Assembly (NCBI RefSeq): GCF_014137855.1
Contig: NZ_JACGWT010000003.1
Location: forward strand, 620,001-684,000
Source of the DNA: Microlunatus kandeliicorticis
Lineage (GTDB): Bacteria > Actinomycetota > Actinomycetes > Propionibacteriales > Propionibacteriaceae
DNA: 64,000 nt
Direction of reading: 5' to 3'
Notes under the pieces: generated by a model
What the model was told of the DNA's origin: nothing
Databases searched by the model: none
The model's input: only the letters and a program-made list of their open reading frames with translations
In this document: piece after piece, positions 7,976 through 34,977 of the stretch
Layout of the letters: the number at the start of each line of letters is the position of its first letter
Position numbering within the stretch: the first letter of the stretch is position 1
Translations under genes and position numbers: made by a program

Positions 7976-9465
7976 ATGCAGGGTCGGGTGCCGCAGGAGT
8001 CCGCGGCCGCACAGCACGGCGGGACCGGCGTCGGGAGCGTCTCGGTCAACGGCCGGCCGCTCGGGCTGGGTCCCGTCGGAGGCCACGTCACGCTGCTCGA
8101 CTGGCTGCGGAGCCGAGGGCTGACCGGGACCAAGGAGGGCTGCGCCGAGGGCGAGTGCGGCGCCTGCTCGGTGCTGGTGGCCCGACCCGACGGCGACGAC
8201 CGCACCCGCTGGACCGCGATCAACTCCTGCCTGGTGCCGGCCGCCGGCTGTGCCGGGCAGGAGGTGATCACCGCCGAGGGCCTGGGCACCGTCGACGCCC
8301 TGCACCCGGTGCAGCGCGAGATGGCCGTCCGCGGCGGATCCCAGTGCGGCTACTGCACGCCCGGGTTCGTCTGCTCGATGGCCGCTGAGTACTACCGGCC
8401 CGAACGCGCCGCCGACCAGCACGCCACGGCTGGTCATGATCACGAGCACGGGCCGAACGGCTTCGACCTGCACGCGCTGAGCGGCAACCTCTGCCGCTGC
8501 ACCGGCTACCGGCCGATCCGCGACGCCGCGTACGCACTCGACCGGCCCGCCGACGACGACCCGCTCCACCAGCGCACCCGGCGCCCGGCCCCACCCGCCG
8601 CACCGGTGACGGTGACCGGCGACCAGGGCGACTTCGTCCGGCCCGCCGACCTGGCCGCAGCGCTCCGGCTGATCGCCGAGCGTCCGGACGCCCGGGTGGT
8701 GGCCGGGTCCACCGACTGGGGCGTCGAGCTGAACCTCCGGCACCGCCGCGCGCCGCTGACCGTCGCCGTCGACCGGCTGCCCGAGCTGCGCGCCTGCACC
8801 GCCGACGACGAGACCATCGACCTCGGGGCCGCGCTGACCCTCAGCGAGATCGAGCGCCGGCTCGACGGCAGCGTCCCGTTGCTGGCCGAGCTGTTCCCGC
8901 AGTTCGCGTCGCGACTGATCCGCAACGGCGCCACCCTGGGCGGCAACCTGGGCACCGGATCGCCGATCGGCGACAGCCCGCCGGTGCTGCTCGCGCTCGA
9001 GGCGCGGCTGGTGCTGGCCTCGGCGACCGGCACCCGCGAGGTGGCGCTGGCCGACTACTTCACCGGCTACCGGCAGTCGGTGCGCCGGCCCGACGAGCTG
9101 ATCACCACCGTCCGGATCCCCCGGCCGCTGGCCGCGCACACCGCGTTCCACAAGATCGCCAAGCGCCGGTTCGACGACATCTCCAGCGTCGCCGTGGCCT
9201 TCGCGCTCGACCTCGACGGCGACCGGGTCGCCCGGATCCGGATCGGACTGGGCGGGGTGGCGGCCACCCCGCTGCGCGCCCGGGCCACCGAGGAGCAGCT
9301 GACCGGGGCTCCGTGGACCCGCGAAGCGGTCCGCGCCGCGGCCGACCGGCTGGCCACCGAGGGCACCCCGCTCGACGACCACCGGGCCAGCGCCGCCTAC
9401 CGCACCGCGATGCTCCGCACCGCCCTGCTCAAGTTCTTCGCCCGGACCCGAGGGGAGGTGTCGGC

Positions 9466-9469
<4 letters not shown>
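7976..9469 (+). CDS. xdhA: Xanthine dehydrogenase, FeS/FAD subunit
   Basis: A 497-residue subunit that carries electrons from the molybdenum subunit to NAD+. The N-terminal 2Fe-2S domain has CAEGECGAC, and the second cluster domain has CGYC and LCRCTGYRPI. A linker leads to the CO-dehydrogenase-type FAD domain with VVAGSTDWGVELN and ATLGGNLGTGSPIGD. Between the cysteine motifs is a short His-rich insertion (HATAGHDHEHG). The ATG at 7976 is chosen because it begins just ahead of the ferredoxin domain and has GGACGGGGG upstream. It overlaps xdhB by 4 bp. Confidence 0.95.
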
Positions 9470-11943
<2,474 letters not shown>

Positions 11944-11953
11944 GGAGGCGGCG

Positions 11954-12958
11954 ATGGACTGGCTGAGCACCGTGCAGCAGCTGCGGCGCGAGAACGTCCC
12001 CGGCGTCCTGGTCACCGTCGTCGAGGTGCGCGGGCACGCCCCGCGCGACCCCGGCACCAAGATGGTGGTCGGCACCGACCGCACCTGGGGCAGCGTCGGC
12101 GGCGGCAACCTCGAGGAGACCGCGATCGACCGGGCCCGGTCGATGATCGCGACCATGATCGACACTGGCGCGACGGCTCCGGTGACCTGGCGGTCCGCGC
12201 TCAACGAGCACGCCCGCACCGCGCACGGCCGGCAGTGCTGCGGCGGGGTGGTGACCCTGCTGTTCGAGCCGCTGCCGATTCGTCCGACGGTGGCCGTGTT
12301 CGGGGTCGGCCACGTCGGCTTCGAGCTGGCCCGGATCCTGTCCCGGCTGGAGATCGCGCTGCACCTGGTGGACAGCCGGGACGAGCAGCTCGATCCGCTC
12401 CGGCTGGCCGAGATCACCGACGGCGCCGCCGACGTCACCGTCCACCGCACGCCGCTCGGCGAGACCGTGCTCGAGCGGCTGCCGGACGACGCCCAGGTGT
12501 TGATCATGACCCACGACCACGCCGAGGACTACGCGCTCTGCGACGCCGCGCTCCGACGGATCGCGGCCGGTCACCGGCTCGGTCTGGTCGGGCTGATCGG
12601 CTCGCGGGCCAAGTGGGCGCGCTTCCGTGCCAAGCTGCTCGCCGACGGGCACACTGCCGACGTGGTCACCCGGATCTGCTCACCGATCGGGCTGCCCGCG
12701 CTCACCGGCAAGGAACCGGTGGTGATCGCCGTCGGCGTCGCCGCCCAGCTGATCGAGCGGATCCAGACCCGCCGAACAGAGCCCGTCGGAGCCCCGCCCC
12801 CTGAGCTCGTCGATGGGCCGCGCCTTGAGCCTGTCGAAGGGCCTGAGCCTGTCGGGACGCTCCCTGAGCCTGCCGGGACGCGCCCTGAGCCTGCCGGGAC
12901 GCGCCCTGAGCCTGCCGGGACGCGCCCTGAGCCTGTCGAAGGGCGGGCCCGGCGATGA
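11954..12958 (+). CDS. xdhC: XdhC molybdenum cofactor maturation protein with a repeat-derived tail
   Basis: A 334-residue protein of the XdhC/CoxI family, which binds Mo cofactor and helps insert its sulfurated form into xanthine dehydrogenase. The conserved N-terminal part has [14 protein letters not shown] and [11 protein letters not shown] Rossmann domain follows with VFGVGHVG, and [12 protein letters not shown] is typical. The family region ends near residue 275. Residues ~276-334 form a low-complexity Pro/Glu/Gly tail of seven-residue PEPAGTR repeats encoded by REP-like DNA. GAGGAGG precedes the ATG. The stop overlaps guaD as ATGA. Confidence 0.92.
12822..12945 (+). repeat. REP-like and 21-bp tandem repeats inside the 3' end of xdhC
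   Basis: Two REP-like copies (GAGCCTGTCGAAGG, 12828-12841 and 12928-12941) bracket diverged copies and three identical 21-bp units at 12862-12882, 12883-12903 and 12904-12924. The array stays in frame and is translated as the XdhC tail, ending 9 bp before the guaD start codon. Confidence 0.85.
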
Positions 12959-14303
12959 CCCTCTACCGCGCCACCGTCCTCGACGTGCCCGGCGACCCGT
13001 TCACCGACGGCCCGGACGCGCTGCGGGCCGAGACCGACGCCGGGCTGCTGGTCCGCGACGGTGTGATCACCGCCCGCGGTCCGTACGCCGAGCTCCGCGC
13101 CGCGCACCCCGGCGAGCCGGTCGAGGACCTGACCGACGGCGTCCTGCTGCCCGGGTTCGTCGACACCCACGTGCACTACCCGCAGGTCCGGGTGATCGGC
13201 GGGCTCGGGATGCCGCTGCTCGACTGGCTCGAACGGTGTGCGCTCCCCGAGGAGGCACGGCTGGCCGACGACCGCTACGCCGCCGCGGTGGCCGAGGACT
13301 TCCTCACCGGCTTGGCCGCGGCCGGCACCACCACCGCGCTGGTCTTCGGCGCGCACTTCGCCACCGCGACGGACGTCTTCTTCGCGGCCGCCGAGCGGTC
13401 CGGCCTGCGGATCACCGCCGGGCAGGTAGTGAGCGACCGGGTGCTCCGCGACGAGTTGCTGACCGACCCGGACCGGGCGCTGACCGAGGGCCGCCGGCTG
13501 ATCGAGCGCTGGCACGGACGCGGTCGGTTGCGCTACGCGGTGACCCCGCGGTTCTCGCTGTCGACCAGCGACGACTTGCTCGCCGTCTGCGGCGAGCTCC
13601 TCGAGGCGGCCGACGGGGTGGCGTTCACCTCGCACGCGAACGAGAACCTCCGCGAGGTCGACCGGGTGCGCGAGCTGTTCCCCGGCAGCGACGACTACCT
13701 CGACACCTACGACAAGCACGGGCTGCTCGGCCCGCGGAGCGTGATCGCGCACAACGTCCACGTCACGGACGCCGAGCTCGACCTGATGGCCCGGGTCGGT
13801 GCCTGGTCGAGCCACTGCCCCACCAGCAACGCCTCGCTGGGCAGCGGGCTGTTCCCGCTGCGCCGGCACGCCGAGCACGGCGTCGGGGTGGCGATGGGCA
13901 GCGACGTCGGGGGCGGCACCGGGTTCTCGCTGGTCAAGGAGGGGCTGCAGGCCTACTTCGCCCAGCAGCTGCTCGGGCCCGACGGTCTGCCGCTGACCAG
14001 CACCCACCTGCTCTACCTGATCACCCGGGCCGGCGCCCGGGCCCTCGGGCTCGACGACCGGGTCGGCGACCTGGGGGTCGGGAAGCAGTTCGACGCCAGC
14101 TGGCTGCGTCCGAGCCCGGGCAGCACCTTCGCCACGAACCTGGCCCACGCCGAGGACGCCGCCGACGCGCTGGCCAAGATCTTCACCCTGTCCACTCCGG
14201 GCGACGTGGCCGCGGTGTGGGTCGGTGGTGACCTGACGACCGCCTCCGGTGGGCGTCCCCGCAACCCATCCACCGCACCGTCATCCCGCCCCAAGGAGGC
14301 CGC

Positions 14304-25518: not shown

Positions 25519-26700
<1,182 letters not shown>

Positions 26701-26701
26701 G

Positions 26702-27730
26702 TCAGTCCTCCCAGCTCATGATCACCTTGCCGCTGTCCCCCGACCGGGCCACCGCGAACGCCTGTTCGTGCTCGGTGTGGTGGAACCGGTGGGTGATCAC
26801 CCCGGAGATGTCGAGGCCGCTCTGCAGCAGCACCGACATCGCGTACCAGGTCTCGAACATCTCGCGGCCGTAGATGCCCTTGATGGTCAGCATGTTGAGC
26901 ACCACGGTGGCCAGGTCGATGCTCACCTCGTCGCCGGGCAGTCCCAGCACGGCGATCCGGCCGCCGTGGGTGAGGTTGTCGATCATCTCGCGGAGCGCGG
27001 CCGGGCTGCCGGACATCTCCAGTCCGACGTCGAAGCCCTCGCGCATCCCGAGCCGGGCCTGCGCGTCCCGGACCGTCGTGCCCGACGCGTCGACCCCGAG
27101 GGTGACGCCGAGCCGCTCCGCCAGGGCCAGCCGGGGCCGGCTGAGATCGGTGATCACCACGTGCCGGGCACCGGCGTGCTTGGCCACCATCGCGGCCATG
27201 ATCCCGATCGGTCCCGCCCCGGTGACCAGCACGTCCTCGCCGAGGCTGGGGAAGGTCAGCGCGGTGTGCACCGCGTTGCCGAACGGGTCGAAGATCGCCG
27301 CCACGTCCCAGCCGATCGGGGCCGGGTGCACCCAGACGTTGCCGGCCGGGATCACCACGTACTGGGCGAACGCCCCGTCGACCTGCACCCCGATGCCCCG
27401 GGTGTGGATGCACAGGTGCCGGCGACCGGCCCGGCAGTTGCGACAGCGGCCGCAGACCAGGTGGCCCTCGCCGCTGACCGCGTCACCGACCCGCACCTCG
27501 GTGACCGACGCGCCGACCTCGACCACCTCGCCGGAGAACTCGTGGCCGACCACCACCGGCGGGGCGACGTGGCCCTGGGCCCAGTGGTCCCAGGCCTGGA
27601 TGTGCAGGTCGGTGCCACAGATCCCGGTCTGCCGGACGGCGACCAGCACGTCACCGGGCCCGCAGACCGGGTCGGGTACGTCGGTCAGCACCAGCCCCGG
27701 CTCGGCGGCGGGCTTGATCAGCGCCTTCAC
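26702..27730 (-). CDS. tdh: L-threonine 3-dehydrogenase
   Basis: A 342-residue zinc alcohol dehydrogenase family enzyme that oxidises threonine to 2-amino-3-oxobutyrate, the Kbl substrate. The catalytic-zinc ligands are the Cys in [11 protein letters not shown] and the His/Glu in GHEFSGEV. The structural-zinc cluster is [15 protein letters not shown]. The NAD site is [20 protein letters not shown]. The GTG at 27730 gives the same length as E. coli Tdh (341) and lies 6 nt after a TACGGT hexamer, so the message is probably leaderless. Confidence 0.96.
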
Positions 27731-27736
27731 GGCGCC

Positions 27737-27742
27737 ACCGTA
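27737..27742 (-). promoter_or_regulatory. Putative -10 hexamer, leaderless tdh start
   Basis: TACGGT on the minus strand ends 6 nt before the GTG at 27730. Confidence 0.45.
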
Positions 27743-27785
27743 CCCAGGTCGCCGCACCCGGCCGGAACGGCCGACCCGGCTCCGC

Positions 27786-29126
27786 TCAGCCGCGCAGCCG
27801 GTAGAGCACCTCGCCGGCGTGCGGTTCGACGAAGGTGTCCGGGTCGGCCGCGTAGGCCTCGACGTCGACCTCGGCCGGGTCGAGGTAGTGCAGGTTGACC
27901 GCCTCGACGACCTCGCGCGGGATGCCGGTGGCCAGGGTGACGGTGACCCGGTTGCGCTCGCCGTGCTCCGGGTCCCAGGTGCCCTGGCCGCGCAGGTGGG
28001 TCGAGTGCGCCAGGTCGCCCCACGGCTGGTGCCGGAACCGCTCCCACTGCCCGAGGAAGTAGTCCCGGTTGTGATAGCCGATCTCGGTGATGTGCGGGTG
28101 CATCACCGAGACCTCGGTGATGTGCGGGGCGTAGATGATCAGCTCGCCCCCGTCGGCCACGATCGGCTCGAGCTTGTAGAAGCCCTTGGCCGCCGTCCAG
28201 ATGTCCTCGTAGCGTTCCGGCATCACCGACAGCACCCGCCGGTAGCTGCGGTCGAGGTAGGTGACGTGGGTCTGGGCGGAGATCCCGGCGCAGGCGGCCC
28301 AGGCGTCCTCCGGGGTGCCGAACGCGGCGGCGTGCAGCGTGTCGGTGCCCGAGGCGACCACCAGGCAGAGGGCCAGCCGCCGGGTCGGGATCATCGCGGC
28401 GGCCTCGTTGACCAGGGCCCGCACCGGCGTCACCCCCGACGTGCCGATCATCTCGGCGCTGGTGATCAGCGCGCCGACCCAGTGCGAGACGTCGATCAGC
28501 TCGGGACCCGAGACGCCGGGGAAGAAGTACTTGTTGCCACCGGAGAAGCCGACCACCTCGTGCGGGAAGACCGGCCCGACCACCACCGCGACGTCGGCCT
28601 CGGCGACGTGCCGGTTGACCCGGACGTCCACGGCGGTGTCGGTCATCAGCCCGCCGGTGAGCTCGGCCATCCGGTCGGTCTCGATCCGACCGAGCGGCAG
28701 GAAGGTCTCCGGGCGCCACGACTCGTGGTTGAGCACCGTCCAGCCCGGATAGGTCGCCTCGAGCGCACCGGGCTCGTAGCCGAGATGGGCGGCCAGGTGC
28801 TCCTCGCTCATCCCCTGGTGGGTGCCGAGCGCGATCACCACGGTCACCGCCAGTGCCCGGTCCCCGATGGCCCGGTGCGCGGCCCGCAGCAGCAGCGGCA
28901 ACGGGCAGGTCCGGGTGCCGTCGGGCACCACCAGGCAGACCCGGCGGCCGTCCAGGTCGGCGCCGGCGAAGGCCTGTTCGACGAATCGGCTGACCTGCTC
29001 GGGATCGAGCCGCTCCCCCGCGCCGCCGACCAGCGTCGCCCGCGCCGGGTCGCCGGGCTCGGTGCCGTAGCCGTCCTCGCGACCGGGGCGGGTGGCCGGG
29101 ATCGTCGACCCTGGGGTGGTGGTCAT
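27786..29126 (-). CDS. LarA-family nickel-pincer racemase/epimerase, possible mannonate/gluconate 2-epimerase
   Basis: A 446-residue protein of the LarA (DUF2088) superfamily, which uses the nickel-pincer nucleotide cofactor to racemise or epimerise 2-hydroxyacids by hydride transfer. By alignment from memory with Lactobacillus LarA, every key residue is kept: R72 (PDGTR), H103 (GTHQG), H189 and K199 ([17 protein letters not shown]), H215 (DVSHW) and K314 (AAKG). Lactate itself is an unlikely substrate given the neighbours. It is divergent from uxaC-uxuB, and a D-gluconate 2-epimerase is known in this family, so D-mannonate is the best guess. The cofactor genes larB/C/E are not in the window. 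Confidence 0.85.
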
Positions 29127-29132
29127 GCCGCC

Positions 29133-29138
29133 ACTCTG
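29133..29138 (-). promoter_or_regulatory. Putative -10 hexamer for the LarA homolog
   Basis: CAGAGT on the minus strand ends 6 nt before the ATG at 29126, consistent with a leaderless transcript. Confidence 0.35.
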
Positions 29139-29181
29139 CTGCGGGCGGCCGGGCCCGGCAACCCCGGGGGCGGCGGTGACG

Positions 29182-29195
29182 GCAACTTGCGGCAA
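29182..29195. promoter_or_regulatory. LacI-type operator, larA-like/uxaC intergenic region
   Basis: GCAACTTGCGGCAA contains the palindrome TTGC-G-GCAA. It matches 12 of 14 positions with the site at 33093-33106 in front of uidA. It lies within the divergent promoters of the LarA homolog and uxaC. Confidence 0.6.
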
Positions 29196-29224
29196 ACGGT
29201 GGCCGCCGGCCGGCCCCGACCGCC

Positions 29225-29230
29225 GATGAT
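29225..29230 (+). promoter_or_regulatory. Putative -10 hexamer, leaderless uxaC start
   Basis: GATGAT ends 6 nt before the ATG at 29237; no Shine-Dalgarno sequence is visible. Confidence 0.4.
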
Positions 29231-29236
29231 GGGCCC

Positions 29237-30673
29237 ATGGTTCCCGCACCGACCGTCCCGACCGCGCGGCCGTTGGCCGCCGACCCGGACCGGCTGTTCC
29301 CGGCGGACCCGTCGCTGCGCCCGCTGGCCCGGCAGCTCTACGAGCGGGTGGCCGACCTGCCGATCATCTCGCCGCACGGGCACGTGCCGGCGTCCTGGCT
29401 GGCCGAGGACACCCCGTTCACCGACCCCACCTCGCTGCTGATCACCCCCGACCACTACGTCACCCGGCTCCTGCACGCGCACGGCGTCGGGCTGGACGCG
29501 CTCGGGGTCGGGCAGGGCCCGCTGTCCGAGCCGGACGCGCGGGCGGCGTTCCGGATCCTCTGCGGGCACTGGTCGGTCTACCGCGGGACCCCGGTCCGGT
29601 ACTGGCTGCAGGCGCAGCTGACCGGGATCTTCGGCGTGGACGTCCGGCCGAGCGCGGAGACCGCCGACGCGATCTACGACACGGTCGCGGCCGCGCTGGC
29701 CACCCCGGCGTTCCGGCCGCGGGCGCTGTTCGAGCGGTTCCGGATCGCGGTGCTGGCCACCACCGACGACCCCTGCGACGACCTGTCCGCGCACCGCGCC
29801 CTGGCCGACGACCCGACCTGGACCGGCCGGGTGATCCCGACGTTCCGTCCCGACCGCTACCTCGAGGTCGGCGCCCGCGGCTGGCGGACCGACGCCGACC
29901 TGCTGGCCGAGACCGCGGGCACCGAGGTCGGCGACTACGCCGGGTTCGTGGCCGCGCTGGAAGCCCGCCGCGCCCACTTCCGCGCCCACGGCGCGGTGTC
30001 GGCCGACCACAGCCACGCCGACGTCCGCACCGACCGGCTGAGCCCCGCCGAGGCGGAGCGGCTCTACCGGCTGGCCCGGTCGGGCGACCTGACCCCCGAC
30101 GAGGCGGTCGCGCTGCGGCGGCACCTGCTGTGGGAGATGGGCCGGATGTCGTCCGAGGACGGGCTGGTGATGACCCTGCACCCGGCGGTGGCCCGCAACC
30201 ACCACCGGCCCACGTTCGAGCGGTTCGGCGCCGACGTCGGCGCGGACGTCCCGGTCACCGCCGAGTACGTCCGCGCGCTGGCGCCGCTGCTGTCCGACTT
30301 CGGCACCCACGAGAACTTCCGGATGGTGCTGTTCACCATCGACGAGACCACCTTCAGCCGCGAGATCGCCCCGCTGGCCGGCTTCTACCCGTCGGTGTTC
30401 GCCGGGGCCCCGTGGTGGTTCCTCGATGCCCCCGAGGCGATCCGCCGCTACCGGGCGGCGGTCACCGAGACCGCCGGGTTCGGCAAGACCTCGGGCTTCA
30501 TCGACGACACCCGCGCCTACTGCTCGATCCCGGCCCGGCACGACATGGCCCGTCGGCTCGACGCCGGCTACGTCGCCTCGCTGGTCGCCGACGGCCGGCT
30601 CGAGGAGGACGAGGCCGTCGAGGTGGTCGAGGAGCTGGTCACGGTCAACCCGCGCCGGGCGTTCCGGCTGTGA
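29237..30673 (+). CDS. uxaC: Glucuronate isomerase
   Basis: A 478-residue enzyme that isomerises D-glucuronate to D-fructuronate (and galacturonate to tagaturonate). It opens with RLFPADPSLRPLARQLY and the metal-binding ISPHGHVPASWL. Other family blocks are ATTDDPCDDL, RPDRYLEVG, MTLHPAVARNHH and the closing FIDDTRAYCSIPARHDMARR. Length is normal for UxaC (470 in E. coli). It is first in an operon with the fructuronate reductase, which it overlaps by 4 bp. Confidence 0.96.
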   Translation: MVPAPTVPTARPLAADPDRLFPADPSLRPLARQLYERVADLPIISPHGHVPASWLAEDTPFTDPTSLLITPDHYVTRLLHAHGVGLDALGVGQGPLSEPDARAAFRILCGHWSVYRGTPVRYWLQAQLTGIFGVDVRPSAETADAIYDTVAAALATPAFRPRALFERFRIAVLATTDDPCDDLSAHRALADDPTWTGRVIPTFRPDRYLEVGARGWRTDADLLAETAGTEVGDYAGFVAALEARRAHFRAHGAVSADHSHADVRTDRLSPAEAERLYRLARSGDLTPDEAVALRRHLLWEMGRMSSEDGLVMTLHPAVARNHHRPTFERFGADVGADVPVTAEYVRALAPLLSDFGTHENFRMVLFTIDETTFSREIAPLAGFYPSVFAGAPWWFLDAPEAIRRYRAAVTETAGFGKTSGFIDDTRAYCSIPARHDMARRLDAGYVASLVADGRLEEDEAVEVVEELVTVNPRRAFRL

Positions 30674-32049
30674 CCGCGCCGCGGCTCGACCGGGACGCAC
30701 CCGGGCGTCCGACCGCCCCGCCGGTGCGGATCGTCCACCTCGGGGTCGGCAACTTCCACCGGGCCCACCAGGCCTGGTACACCGCGCACGCCGCCGACGC
30801 CGACGGCTGGGGCATCGCCGGGTTCACCGGCCGCCGCCCGGACGCCGCCGAGGCACTGGGGCCGCAGGACGGGCTCTACACGCTGATCGTCCGCGGGCCG
30901 GACGGGGACGCCTTCGAGCTGGTCGGGTCGCTGGCCGCGGTCCACCCGGCCGCCGACCACGCCGCCCTGCTCGACTACCTGCGCCGGCCGGAGGTCGCGG
31001 TGGTCACCCTGACCGTGACCGAGGCCGGCTATCTCCGCGGCGCCGACGGTCGGCTCGACCTCGAGCGCGCCGAGGTGCAGGCCGACCTGGAGACCCTCCG
31101 CACCGACGCCGGGGCCGCGGTGACCACGGTGCCCGGGCGGCTGGTCGCCGGGCTGGCCGCCCGCCGGGCCGCCGGGGCCGGCCCGCTGACCGTGCTCAGC
31201 TGCGACAACCTGCCCGAGAACGGCGCCGCGACCGCCGCGGTGGTCGGCGACCTGGCCCGCGCCCTCGACCCCGGTCTGGCCGACTGGATCGCCGCCGAGA
31301 TCGACTTCGCCACCTCGATGGTCGACCGGATCACCCCGGCCACCACCGCCGAGGACGTCGACCTGGTGGCCCGCAGCCAGGGTTGGACCGACGCCGCGCC
31401 GGTGCCGACCGAACCGTTCGCCGAGTGGGTGGTGGCCGGCCGGTTCCCGGCCGGGCGTCCGGACTGGGCCGGCGCCGGGGTGGCGCTGGTCGACGACGTC
31501 ACGCCCTACGAGCAGCGGAAGCTCTGGCTGCTCAACGGCTCGCACTCGCTGCTCGCCTACGCGGCCAGCCAGCGCGGCCACCGGACCATCGACGCCGCGA
31601 TCGCCGACCCGGTGGCCCGCGGCTGGGTGGAGACCTACTGGGACGAGGCGGTCGGCCACCTCAGCCTGCCCGGCGACCAGGTGAGCGCCTACCGCGCCGC
31701 GCTGCTCGACCGGTTCGGCAACCCGCGGGTGCGGCACCAGCTGGCCCAGATCGCCGCCGACGGGTCGCTCAAGCTGGCGGTCCGGATCGTCCCCGTGACC
31801 CGCGCCGAGCGGGCCGCCGGCCGGCTGCCGACCGGTTGCTCCACCGCGCTGGCGGGCTGGGTCCGGCACCTGCAGGGGCACGGCGTGCCGGTCACCGACC
31901 CCAACGCGGACCGGGCCCAGGAGGCCGCGAGCGCGGCGGACCCGCGCGCCGCGGTGCACGGCGTGCTGGCCACCCTGGCCGACGACCTCGCCGCCGACGA
32001 GGCGTTCGTCGACCTGGTCGTCGCCCGGCTGGACGCGCTCACCGCCTGA
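30670..32049 (+). CDS. uxuB: Fructuronate reductase, mannitol dehydrogenase family
   Basis: A 459-residue NAD-dependent enzyme of the long-chain mannitol dehydrogenase family. The nucleotide site is IVHLGVGNFHRAHQ. The active-site stretch includes ATSMVDRITP, TPYEQRKLWLLNGSHSLLAY and the downstream LKLAVRIVP. Next to uxaC the expected reaction is D-fructuronate to D-mannonate. Tagaturonate reductase or mannitol dehydrogenase cannot be excluded by sequence alone, but the adjacent beta-glucuronidase favours the glucuronate route. The GTG start overlaps the uxaC stop as GTGA. Confidence 0.85.
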   Translation: MTAPRLDRDAPGRPTAPPVRIVHLGVGNFHRAHQAWYTAHAADADGWGIAGFTGRRPDAAEALGPQDGLYTLIVRGPDGDAFELVGSLAAVHPAADHAALLDYLRRPEVAVVTLTVTEAGYLRGADGRLDLERAEVQADLETLRTDAGAAVTTVPGRLVAGLAARRAAGAGPLTVLSCDNLPENGAATAAVVGDLARALDPGLADWIAAEIDFATSMVDRITPATTAEDVDLVARSQGWTDAAPVPTEPFAEWVVAGRFPAGRPDWAGAGVALVDDVTPYEQRKLWLLNGSHSLLAYAASQRGHRTIDAAIADPVARGWVETYWDEAVGHLSLPGDQVSAYRAALLDRFGNPRVRHQLAQIAADGSLKLAVRIVPVTRAERAAGRLPTGCSTALAGWVRHLQGHGVPVTDPNADRAQEAASAADPRAAVHGVLATLADDLAADEAFVDLVVARLDALTA

Positions 32050-32072
32050 GCCGGGCGGGCCCGACGTCCGGA

Positions 32073-33074
32073 TCAGCGCGGGCTGGGTCCGGTGGAGTCG
32101 CGCAGCACCAGCCTCGCCGGCAGCAGCACCGGCTCGGCCCGCGCGTCGTCGGGGGCGGCGCCGCGTCGCCGGACCAGCGCGGCGATCGCGGTCGACCCGA
32201 TGCTGACCAGCGGCGCGGCGATGGTGGTCAGTCCGGGCTCGACCAGTCCGGCGTCGACGATGTTGTCGAAGCCGATCACGCTGACGTCGTCGGGCACCCG
32301 GCACCCGGCCGCCTGCACCGCCTGCACGAACCCGATGGCCATCAGGTCGTTGTAGCTGATCACCGCGGTGCTCCTTCGGGTCAGCCAGGTCTCCGCGGCC
32401 TGCGCCCCGCCCCGGATGGTCGGCGGGTACGGGCCGAGCCGGCGGACGTGCAGCGCGAGCTCGTCGCCGGCCTCCTTGAGCCCCCGCCAGCGCATCCCGT
32501 CGGCGAACGACGCCTCCGGACCGGCCAGGTAGCAGACGGACCGGTGACCGAGCCCGGCCAGGTGCTCGGCCGCCTTCTTGATCGCCTGGACGTTGTCGCT
32601 GACCACCGAGGCCACCTCGGCCACCGTCCGGTTGAGCACCACCACCGGTCGGCGCTTGACCAGCGCGCGGATCGCGGTGTCGGGCAGCCGCGAGGAGCTG
32701 AGGATGAAGCCGTCGACGGTGGCGGCCAGCCGCTCGACCGCCCGGCGCTCGGCCTGCTGCGACTCCTGGGTCTCCACGATGGCCAGCGTCAGCCCGTGCT
32801 CGGCCGCCTCCCGGTCGGCGCCACGGATCATCCCGACGAAGACCGGGTTGGCGATGTCGGCGACGATCAGCGCCACCACCCCGGTGCCGCGGGTCGGCAC
32901 CACGGTCTCCATCCGCCCGGTCCGGTAGCCCAGCTCCTCGGCCACCCGCCGGACCTTCTCGGCCGTCCGGAAGCTGACCCGTCCGGGCTTGGCCAGCGCG
33001 CGCGAGACGGTCGAGGGCGCCACCCCGGCCGCCCGGGCGACGTCGTAGATCGTCGGCCCCTGGTCCTCGCTCAT
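32073..33074 (-). CDS. LacI family regulator of the glucuronide cluster
   Basis: A 333-residue regulator. The HTH reads PTIYDVARAAGVAPSTVSRAL, followed by the start of the ligand domain at VVALIVADIANPVF, and GFDNIVDAGLVEPGLTT near the end. GGGAGG lies just upstream of the ATG. It is convergent with uxuB and divergent from uidA, and operator-like sites with the same sequence lie in both divergent regions of the cluster. The inducer is likely a pathway intermediate such as fructuronate or glucuronate (inference). Confidence 0.9.
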   Translation of the reverse strand: MSEDQGPTIYDVARAAGVAPSTVSRALAKPGRVSFRTAEKVRRVAEELGYRTGRMETVVPTRGTGVVALIVADIANPVFVGMIRGADREAAEHGLTLAIVETQESQQAERRAVERLAATVDGFILSSSRLPDTAIRALVKRRPVVVLNRTVAEVASVVSDNVQAIKKAAEHLAGLGHRSVCYLAGPEASFADGMRWRGLKEAGDELALHVRRLGPYPPTIRGGAQAAETWLTRRSTAVISYNDLMAIGFVQAVQAAGCRVPDDVSVIGFDNIVDAGLVEPGLTTIAAPLVSIGSTAIAALVRRRGAAPDDARAEPVLLPARLVLRDSTGPSPR

Positions 33075-33092
33075 CTCGCCTCCCGGAGCTCA

Positions 33093-33106
33093 GCAACTTA
33101 CGACAA
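33093..33106. promoter_or_regulatory. LacI-type operator, lacI/uidA intergenic region
   Basis: GCAACTTACGACAA differs at only two positions from the site at 29182-29195. It lies 18 bp upstream of the regulator start, on the side facing uidA. Confidence 0.6.
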
Positions 33107-33171
33107 CAACTCGCGCCCGGCGGGTCACGGGTGGCTCAATGGCCACCCGGACCGACCAGGAGGAGCCGATC

Positions 33172-34977
33172 ATGCTGCGTCCGCAGGACACGAGCACCCG
33201 GGAGCGGAAGAACCTCGACGGTCTCTGGCGGTTCGCGCTCGACGGCGACCGCCGCGGCCGCGACGCCGGCTGGTTCGCCCGCCGGCTGGACACCGACCGC
33301 GAGCTGGCGGTTCCCGCCAGCTACAACGACCTGACCGCCGAGGCCGAGGTCCATGATCACGTCGGACCCGTCTGGTACCAGCGCGAGGTCTGGGTCCCGG
33401 CCGGCTGGGCGGGACGGCGGGTGGTGCTGCACCTCGAGTCGGCCACCCACCGGGCCACCGTCTGGGTGGGCGATGCCGAGGTGGTCTCGCACGAGGGCGG
33501 GTACACGCCGTTCGAGGCCGACGTCACCGCGCACGTCACCCCTGGACAGCCGGTGCGGATCAGCGTCGAGGTCGACAACACCCTGACCTTCCGGTCGATC
33601 CCCCCGGGCGAGGTCGAACAGACCGCGCACGGCCCGCGGCAGCGCTACTGGCACGACTTCTTCAACTACGCCGGGCTGCACCGCTCGGTCTGGCTCTACG
33701 CGACCGACCCGGCCCACCTCACCGACGTCACCGTGACCACCGGGTTCGCCGGCACCGACGGCCACGTCGACTACCGGGTGGGCTGGGAGTCCGGGCCGGC
33801 CGACGGTGCGCCCGACGGAACCGGCGGAGCCGACCCGGACGTCGCGGTGGTGCTCCGCGACGCCGACGGCGCCGAGGTGGCCACCGGCCGCGGCGCCACC
33901 GGCCGGCTGACCGTCCCCGACGTCCACCTGTGGGCGCCCGGCGACGGCTACCTCTACGACCTCGAGCTCCAGCTGGTCCGCGACGGCACCGTGCTCGACA
34001 GCTACCACCAGAGCGTCGGCGTCCGGACGGTGCGGGTGGACGGCGCCCGGTTCCTGATCAACGAGCAGCCGTTCTACTTCACCGGCTTCGGCAAGCACGA
34101 GGACCTCGCGGTGCTCGGCAAGGGGCACAGCCCGGCCCACCTGGTGCACGACGTCGCGCTGCTCGAGTGGATCGGCGCCAACTCGTTCCGCACCTCGCAC
34201 TACCCCTACAGCGAGGACGTGCTCGACTACGCCGACCGGCGCGGGCTGGTGCTGATCGACGAGACCGCGGCGGTCGGGCTCAACCTCGGCATGTTCGGCC
34301 GGCGGGACCAGCCGACGTTCTCGCCCGACACGATCGACGATCAGACCCGCGAGGTGCACGCCCAGGCGATCCGCGAGCTGGTCGCGCGCGACCGGAACCA
34401 CCCGTGCGTCGTGCTGTGGAGCATCGCCAACGAGCCCGAGTCGCGGACCGCGGAGGCGGAGGCGTACTTCCGGCCGCTGTTCGACGTGGCCCGCGAGGCC
34501 GACCCGACCCGGCCGGTGGGCTTCGTCAACGTCGGGCTCGCGCCGCACGGGCAGTGCCGGGTCTCGCAGTTCTGCGACGTGATCATGCTCAACCGCTACT
34601 ACGGCTGGTACAGCTACACCGGCGACCTGGCCGCCGCCGAGGACGCCTGGGAGGCCGAGCTGCGCGACTGGGCCGGCGAGGGCAAGCCGATCATCGTCAC
34701 CGAGTACGGCGCCGACACCTACCCCGGCCTGCACGCCACCACCCCCACGCCGTGGACCGAGGAGTACCAGGTCGCCTATCTCGACATGAACCACCGGGTG
34801 TTCGACCGGATCGCCGAGGTGGTCGGCGAGCAGGTGTGGAACTTCGCCGACTTCGCCACTACCCCGGGGATCATCCGGGTCGGCGGCAACAAGAAGGGCG
34901 TGTTCACCCGCGACCGGCAGCCCAAGGCGGCCGCGCACACCCTGCGCGCCCGCTGGCGCGGCCGGGTCGCCGGCTGA
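33172..34977 (+). CDS. uidA: Beta-glucuronidase, GH2
   Basis: A 601-residue GH2 enzyme that releases D-glucuronate from glucuronides. The acid/base is E421 in SIANEPE and the nucleophile E511 in TEYGAD. The NxKG motif (N573/K575 in GGNKKG), which recognises the sugar carboxylate, separates it from beta-galactosidases. Sandwich, immunoglobulin-like and TIM-barrel domains are in the usual order. The ATG at 33172 is chosen over one at 33139 because AGGAGGAG precedes it and the protein then begins MLRP like E. coli UidA (603 residues). No signal peptide, so it should be cytosolic; a glucuronide importer is not in the window. Confidence 0.96.
   Translation: MLRPQDTSTRERKNLDGLWRFALDGDRRGRDAGWFARRLDTDRELAVPASYNDLTAEAEVHDHVGPVWYQREVWVPAGWAGRRVVLHLESATHRATVWVGDAEVVSHEGGYTPFEADVTAHVTPGQPVRISVEVDNTLTFRSIPPGEVEQTAHGPRQRYWHDFFNYAGLHRSVWLYATDPAHLTDVTVTTGFAGTDGHVDYRVGWESGPADGAPDGTGGADPDVAVVLRDADGAEVATGRGATGRLTVPDVHLWAPGDGYLYDLELQLVRDGTVLDSYHQSVGVRTVRVDGARFLINEQPFYFTGFGKHEDLAVLGKGHSPAHLVHDVALLEWIGANSFRTSHYPYSEDVLDYADRRGLVLIDETAAVGLNLGMFGRRDQPTFSPDTIDDQTREVHAQAIRELVARDRNHPCVVLWSIANEPESRTAEAEAYFRPLFDVAREADPTRPVGFVNVGLAPHGQCRVSQFCDVIMLNRYYGWYSYTGDLAAAEDAWEAELRDWAGEGKPIIVTEYGADTYPGLHATTPTPWTEEYQVAYLDMNHRVFDRIAEVVGEQVWNFADFATTPGIIRVGGNKKGVFTRDRQPKAAAHTLRARWRGRVAG

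Follow-up and report, generated by a model that had tools for sequence, protein, structure and literature searches.

Layout of the glucuronide cluster

Textbook glucuronate breakdown uses a mannonate dehydratase and an Entner-Doudoroff aldolase, and the nickel-pincer nucleotide (NPN) cofactor is familiar mainly from lactate racemase. A stretch of the Microlunatus kandeliicorticis genome (contig NZ_JACGWT010000003.1, positions 620,001 to 684,000; the whole 64,000 nucleotides are called the window below) raises the question of what a LarA homolog does beside genes for glucuronide breakdown. We read this cluster as a LacI-controlled glucuronide module in which a nickel-pincer epimerase would turn D-mannonate into D-gluconate, and we place the probability of this reading, in which substrate, direction and flux are what we infer, at about 0.83. 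Its basis is gene identity by family models, residues, linkage, a shared operator pattern and co-occurrence, all of which were observed here.

An earlier note on this DNA had described complete uidA, uxaC and uxuB genes and a larA homolog divergent from uxaC, and all of them were found where it had put them. The features of the cluster are as follows.

27786..29126, minus strand: LarA-superfamily protein, GntE-type by sequence, predicted nickel-pincer D-mannonate/D-gluconate 2-epimerase, 446 amino acids (translation; Pfam Lar_N 78 bits; 4NAR 187 bits; residues and tree)
29127..29236, no strand: divergent promoter region of the larA homolog and uxaC (the stretch separating both starts)
29182..29195, plus strand: operator GCAACTTGCGGCAA (one of two genomic sites at no more than one mismatch; looser pattern enriched in relatives)
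29237..30673, plus strand: uxaC, glucuronate isomerase (NF002794, 541 bits, cut-off 387)
30670..32049, plus strand: uxuB, fructuronate-reductase-like member of the mannitol dehydrogenase family (Pfam Mannitol_dh and Mannitol_dh_C; best NCBIfam match fructuronate reductase)
32073..33074, minus strand: LacI-family regulator (Pfam LacI and Peripla_BP_3)
33093..33106, plus strand: operator GCAACTTACGACAA in the lacI-uidA gap (genome motif search)
33139..34977, plus strand: uidA, beta-glucuronidase (NF007538, 852 bits, cut-off 544)

The best start of the larA homolog is the ATG at 29126, which agrees with the residue numbers used in the earlier note, and uxuB starts with GTG at 30670, overlapping uxaC by 4 bases. 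In tblastn searches of the window (E<=1e-4, one or two reference proteins per family), no match was obtained for UxuA, ManD, Eda, GntK, Gnd, an FGGY or PfkB kinase, or LarB, LarC and LarE. The claimed absence of mannonate dehydratase and eda holds for the window in these searches, but not for the genome, where a ManD and an Eda-like gene lie on other contigs.

The LarA homolog is of GntE type by sequence

Residues D69, R72, H103, H189, K199, H215 and K314 did not vary in either of two alignments, which held 15 and 20 sequences with the query counted. All of them except D69 had already been read as nickel-pincer residues, and those six were confirmed together with D69. The catalytic D69, H103, H189 and K314 and the NPN-binding R72, K199 and H215 align with their counterparts in GntE2 and LarA. 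Among solved structures, the one strong match to the LarA homolog is 4NAR (187 bits), whereas the lactate or malate racemase structures (LarA, Mar2) reached at most 31 bits. 4NAR is GntE2 of Thermotoga maritima, whose epimerisation of D-mannonate to D-gluconate has been demonstrated (PMC7583248).

Identity to GntE2 is 34% over 377 columns; for a pair of lactate racemase structures and a pair of host paralogs it lies at 16-20%. In a tree with these structures and paralogs, GntE2 as its single GntE and no malate racemase, GntE2 and the host clade were split from the remaining sequences with support 1.000. The protein was thus found to group with a characterised gluconate 2-epimerase and not with lactate racemases, as the earlier proposal needs. 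The loop that follows the catalytic His keeps the Glu of GntE2, at a position held by Phe in LarA. The GntE signature is described as a Glu-Val/Ser loop after the catalytic His plus a Trp in helix 11 (PMC7583248, section 8), and the two features of it that were checked, E190-V191 in the loop and W310 in helix 11, are both present.

Lactate racemase identity was ruled out by the score (NF033504, 61 bits, cut-off 460) and the separate tree placement, and malate racemase identity by 92 bits against a cut-off of 500. The best NCBIfam match is NF052594 (NPN_18), a nickel-dependent putative hexonate epimerase family, yet its 148 bits lie far under the cut-off of 500. Judged by sequence, in a comparison with GntE2 as the one characterised GntE, the LarA homolog is a GntE-type protein (groups 18-20), a predicted D-gluconate 2-epimerase.

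Proposed route and its genes elsewhere in the genome

In the proposed route, UidA would free D-glucuronate from a glucuronide, UxaC would convert it to D-fructuronate, and UxuB would reduce this to D-mannonate. The NPN-dependent LarA homolog would then invert C2 to give D-gluconate, passing a hydride to NPN, forming a 2-keto acid and returning the hydride from the other face. A gluconokinase would yield 6-phosphogluconate, and Gnd would yield ribulose 5-phosphate and CO2, with LarB, LarE and LarC supplying NPN. On this route the carboxyl carbon of glucuronate is lost as CO2, and the reducing equivalent spent by UxuB is recovered at Gnd. UxuA would be replaced, though some 2-keto-3-deoxygluconate (KDG) might still form through the ManD that is encoded on another contig.

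The host genome (4.3 Mb, 98.6% complete) was searched for the remaining genes. A genome-wide search found no UxuA. The cofactor genes larB, larC and larE, which the earlier note had named for such a search, are present and form one overlapping operon, gntK-larE-larB-larC, with gntK as its first gene, on another contig (G000 C2:880.3-883.1 kb). All four products score above curated cut-offs (gntK 182 against 114, larE 277 against 150, larB 274 against 175 and larC 198 against 90 bits), and the kinase is a GntK/IdnK-type gluconokinase. The search for gntK, also proposed there, returned two GntK-type genes over the cut-off, the second of which stands directly after gnd; the genome has one full Gnd (423 bits).

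A shared operator pattern

The intergenic regions between larA and uxaC and between lacI and uidA have GCAACTTRCGRCAA in common, which was spotted by eye. At no more than one mismatch, GCAACTTNCGRCAA has two sites in the whole genome, both in this cluster, and the reversed motif at the same strictness has none. Because both sites lie in this cluster, no mannonate dehydratase shares the operator at that strictness; a dehydratase under the same operator elsewhere, which would have spoken against the earlier proposal, was not found. A simple search for a palindromic operator gave nothing convincing.

We then counted a looser motif, GCAAC-N5-GCAA, in 80 named loci of relatives. The motif was chosen after viewing the window, the gntK-larEBC stretch and 19 stretches from relatives; a few of the 80 loci come from genomes already viewed for that choice. 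The results showed that 69 of the 88 sites fall within the 300 bases before matched cluster genes, a zone of 111,627 of 1,419,646 bases (7.9%). This corresponds to 0.618 sites per kb upstream against 0.0145 per kb elsewhere, or about 43-fold, and at least one site occurs in 41/80 loci. Over the 80 loci together, the reversed motif was counted 5 times. Counting one site for both genes of a divergent pair, we found the pattern upstream of the LarA homolog in 30/80, UxaC in 26/44, LacI in 14/43, UidA in 10/22 and Gnd in 7/19 loci. It was seldom upstream of UxuB (2/47), LarE (2/31), FGGY (1/18) and LarC (1/33), and within the 300 bases it was never found upstream of GntK (0/4) or LarB (0/30). Since the pattern precedes Gnd in 7/19 loci, gnd is apparently a member of the regulon in several genera, and larB/C/E mostly have no operator site in the 300 bases before them. 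We infer that the LacI protein acts on the operator.

Co-occurrence in the order and the host family

A survey of 147 genomes of the order (larA homolog threshold E<=1e-20; counts ignore shared ancestry) returned the larA homolog in 60, UxaC in 72, LarC in 76 and a UxuA match in 25, of which 24 were over the cut-off. UxaC was present in 59/60 genomes with the larA homolog, compared with 13/87 without it, and LarC in 59/60 compared with 17/87. The lone exception (G080) has a broken larA homolog and neither UxaC nor LarC; there the homolog is split across frames and adjoins gnd and a PfkB kinase (G080:C16:198681-199773, L132).

Within the host family, the 26 genomes with UxaC divide into 15 with the larA homolog only, 9 with UxuA only, 2 with neither and 0 with both. 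These dehydratase counts refer to UxuA alone. In one genus (g3, to which Tessaracoccus oleiagri belongs) the larA-homolog and UxuA types occur in different species. Eda and Gnd are not informative in the family, because they are near-universal there (44/46 and 43/46 genomes). In a phylum-wide search that scored at most four candidates per genome, and so may have missed some copies, 24/396 genomes matched the larA homolog at E<=1e-10; only three of the matches, including the host, were near full length with more than 50% identity.

Gene order in relatives

The earlier note had suggested looking in other genomes for larA next to uxaC and uxuB without uxuA, and this linkage recurs. In G019 and G045 a single stretch carries gnd, a PfkB kinase, the larA homolog, a GPH symporter, uidA, larE, larB, larC, lacI, uxaC and uxuB, and G033 has the same gene set minus a uidA match. 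In G127 the stretch consists of an FGGY kinase, uxuB, uxaC, the larA homolog, lacI, larE, larB and larC. Two same-genus genomes (G001, G116) hold lacI, uxaC, uxuB, an FGGY kinase and the larA homolog inside 11 kb, and a third (G012) has lacI, uxaC, uxuB, larE, larB and larC together, and the larA homolog elsewhere. Four genomes (G083, G086, G098, G110) carry uxuB, the larA homolog, lacI, uxaC and gnd, G095 is alike minus uxuB, and in Kribbella G051 the larA homolog stands by itself. A chance neighbourhood was ruled out, as the linkage recurs in many genera.

The 80 named loci are the best 80 of 565 confirmed (from at least 591 stretches, found with two peptide patterns of this clade), so they represent just the closest relatives, and some come from genomes that are also in the order survey (e.g. 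Microlunatus flavus, Tessaracoccus oleiagri and several Kribbella). Partner counts and gene orders are from tblastn, and loci were counted at 60 bits or more. UxaC or UxuB was found in 49 of the 80 loci, any of larB/C/E in 38, all three in 29, UidA in 22, Gnd in 19, and a gluconokinase-like kinase in 28 (17 FGGY, 7 PfkB and 4 GntK). UxuA, sought with two query proteins 65% identical to each other, was found in 0/80, and ManD and Eda in 1/80 each, at the same locus. In 7/80 loci, UxaC, UxuB and Gnd occur along with a kinase and one or more Lar genes.

When the 51 loci flanked by 8 kb or more on each side were taken alone, the counts were UxaC/UxuB 34, any larB/C/E 31, all three 27, kinases 21, Gnd 10, UidA 17, UxuA 0, ManD 1, Eda 1 and no partner 8. 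Raising the threshold to 150 bits in the 80 loci changed FGGY from 17 to 15, PfkB from 7 to 6, GntK from 4 to 3, LarE from 34 to 30, LarB from 31 to 26, LarC from 33 to 29, UxuB from 48 to 45 and UidA from 22 to 21, and left UxaC (43) and Gnd (19) unchanged.

In clusters of the Tessaracoccus/Actinomycetaceae type, a PfkB kinase lies between gnd and the larA homolog (L083:2829-3902; also L081, L082, L132, L188, L194, L197 and L202), and no GntK-type match over the cut-off was found in G019, G033, G045 or G080. The PfkB kinase of these clusters is a candidate for an unrelated gluconokinase. In one same-genus genome without a UxaC or Lar_N match, uxuB, larE, larB and larC are adjacent (L131, G107:C1:2247000-2263000, 8208-13238, minus strand), an arrangement that resembles the remnant of a uxuB-lar operon.

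Evidence against the route and alternative reactions

Several observations weigh against the proposed conversion of mannonate to gluconate. An enolase superfamily scan of the host genome gave 14 members, of which 10 were named by family, the other four being L113, L114 and two without a locus. One of the 10 is a mannonate dehydratase of ManD type, at 639 bits against a cut-off of 550. The genome also holds a second, ManD-like protein (353 bits) and an Eda-like protein, resembling 2-keto-3-deoxy-6-phosphogluconate aldolase, that reached 152 bits, just below the TIGR01182 cut-off of 156. The ManD weakens the idea of a strict absence of mannonate dehydratase, and an exclusive KDG bypass is not established, because ManD and an Eda-like gene lie elsewhere in the genome. 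The genome search that the earlier note had asked for was therefore borne out for UxuA, which is absent, but not for ManD and Eda. Its glucuronate-to-gluconate route likewise gains good support at the genome level from larBCE, gntK, gnd and the lack of UxuA, but shares the genome with ManD and the Eda-like gene.

Three other Lar_N proteins are encoded in the host genome, one of them lactate-racemase-like; because of them, larBCE need not serve the larA homolog alone, and the idea of a private cofactor supply is weakened. Within 8 kb round gntK-larEBC, no operator-like site was found within three mismatches. UxuB reached 276 bits with the fructuronate reductase model (cut-off 603), with D-arabinitol 4-dehydrogenase next (265 against 600); as the score is under the curated cut-off, its name leans partly on context, and UxuB is most likely, though not certainly, a fructuronate reductase.

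The survey adds further points of this kind. Outside the host family, 11 genomes of the order carry both the larA homolog and a UxuA match. In the family, a GntK-type kinase passed the cut-off in only 4/15 genomes with the larA homolog and UxaC; in several of the remaining ones an FGGY or PfkB kinase lies within the cluster, below the named-family cut-offs. The cluster FGGY kinase scored 372 bits against 649 (gntK_FGGY) and the PfkB kinase 139 against 700 (best model), so that the gluconokinase role of these proteins is putative. No uronate, Lar, kinase or Gnd partner was matched in 14/80 loci (8 of them Kribbella, and some short-flanked). Each of the two UxuA queries recovered the source locus of the other, at 65% identity, and divergent UxuA-like proteins could be missed with just these two. 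GntE1 of Corynebacterium glutamicum is reported to have a KM of 120 mM for mannonate, and its authors suggest another substrate (PMC7583248). The Lar_N model gave no match in the C. glutamicum control genome.

Given a host ManD above the cut-off and an Eda-like protein, the epimerase could run in reverse, from D-gluconate to D-mannonate, with ManD leading to KDG and KdgK and Eda following, so that glucuronate and gluconate would be pooled into the KDG branch. A locus of Geodermatophilaceae bacterium URHB0062 (L140, 4102-17433) fits this direction: a 77-78% identical larA homolog has ManD, a pair of Eda-like matches and a low-scoring PfkB match (67 bits) as neighbours, which suggests that the epimerase may be used towards KDG in that lineage. 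We nevertheless regard reversal in the host as very unlikely. ManD or Eda is nearby in just 1/80 loci, compared with Gnd in 19 and a gluconokinase-like kinase in 28, the operator pattern precedes Gnd, and gntK is part of the larEBC operon. The 20 kb round the host ManD, on another contig, gave no match to uronate, Lar, Gnd, kinase or Eda references and no operator site at no more than one mismatch.

About equally improbable is a route in which the kinase acts first, on mannonate, and the LarA homolog then converts 6-phosphomannonate into its epimer 6-phosphogluconate, as in Lactobacillus suebicus extracts. The KM values of GntE enzymes for free D-mannonate are high (120, 17 and 9.4 mM; PMC7583248, PMC11770544), and three kinase families adjoin the larA homolog, so the family does not fix the kinase substrate. 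GntE1, GntE2 and LarAH15 are, however, described as acting on unphosphorylated D-mannonate (PMC7583248, PMC11770544), and the kinase of the larEBC operon is of GntK/IdnK type, while E. coli GntK was reported inactive on mannonate (Cohen 1950, cited in PMC6978723). Least probable is another uronate-derived acid as the native substrate, such as D-glucarate converted to D-mannarate as the GntE1 authors proposed (PMC7583248): the GntE1 KM, the uronic acid context of the GntE1 group (PMC7583248) and a host glucarate dehydratase-like protein (L111, 698 bits, cut-off 829) would fit, but the clusters pair UxaC/UxuB with Gnd or a kinase, as scored with a reference set without uronate dehydrogenase and glucarate dehydratase.

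Other genes near these loci

Immediately 3' of the larA homolog and in the same orientation lies kbl-tdh, encoding glycine C-acetyltransferase and L-threonine 3-dehydrogenase (window 25519-27757, minus strand). A D-galactonate dehydratase (L103, G000:C3:615924-616607; 630 bits, cut-off 311) is located about 4 kb left of the window. Further LarA-superfamily proteins are encoded at L094 (G000:C2:365 kb) and L119 (G000:C6:47 kb), one of them near the broad-substrate lactate racemase 9eid (329 bits).

Comparison with known systems

A mannonate-to-gluconate route was proposed earlier for T. maritima (Rodionova 2012, cited in PMC6978723 and PMC7583248), where the UxaR regulon is described as comprising gnd, uxaE, uxaD, gntE and gntK (PMC3750489). 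GntE2 (LarAH20) of that organism and the host protein share the superfamily branch, the catalytic and cofactor residues, the proposed reaction and the downstream enzymes, but the loop reads Glu-Ser in GntE2 and Glu-Val in the host protein. The T. maritima system is fed with galacturonate through UxaE and has a GntR-type regulator, whereas the host cluster would be fed with glucuronides and has a LacI-type regulator; a kdgAK-uxuBA operon stands under the same regulator in T. maritima, so that uxuA coexists there (PMC3750489), whereas the host is without UxuA and has ManD. Several actinobacterial relatives, unlike T. maritima, carry larB/C/E inside the cluster.

GntE1 (LarAH19) of C. glutamicum is likewise actinobacterial, has a uronate context and is described as converting D-mannonate to D-gluconate (PMC7583248). 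UxaC, LarC and Gnd were found in the C. glutamicum control genome, and UxuA and Eda were not; Corynebacterium is named in none of the 80 loci titles. A GntE from Phytophthora has also been described (PMC11770544). The canonical UxuA-KdgK-Eda route has UidA, UxaC and UxuB in common with the proposed one, and differs in UxuA, which is missing from the host genome and from the 80 loci (two queries). The mannonate kinase and 6-phosphomannonate 2-epimerase of L. suebicus also join the isomerase route to 6-phosphogluconate, with phosphorylation preceding epimerisation; the account of them in PMC6978723 names no genes. A literature search by title and the start of the abstract, in a scope that left out most subscription journals, returned no actinobacterial glucuronide regulon with a LarA homolog. 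The pathway idea and the enzyme activity are already published, and the new part is that glucuronide clusters of actinobacteria are linked to larBCE, to gluconokinase-like kinases and to gnd.

Significance for actinobacterial uronate metabolism

The balance tips slightly towards a broader view, in which a main glucuronate route of Actinobacteria would be nickel-dependent: a LacI regulon of UidA, UxaC and UxuB, an NPN epimerase and the genes for its cofactor, a gluconokinase from any of three unrelated families (the PfkB one as yet unnamed) and Gnd would carry glucuronate, by what amounts to a decarboxylation, to ribulose 5-phosphate at no net redox cost. Conversion of mannonate to gluconate would on this view be the native reaction of the GntE1 group. 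The results suggest a physiological role for GntE enzymes with a disputed native substrate, and make the question of the native substrate of actinobacterial GntE1 testable. They also lead to predictions on the fate of label, nickel dependence and the unnamed kinase. In many genera of actinobacteria a sugar-acid pathway seems to depend on the nickel-pincer cofactor, which would tie nickel supply to growth on glucuronides and may offer a redox-balanced passage from uronates to pentose phosphates.

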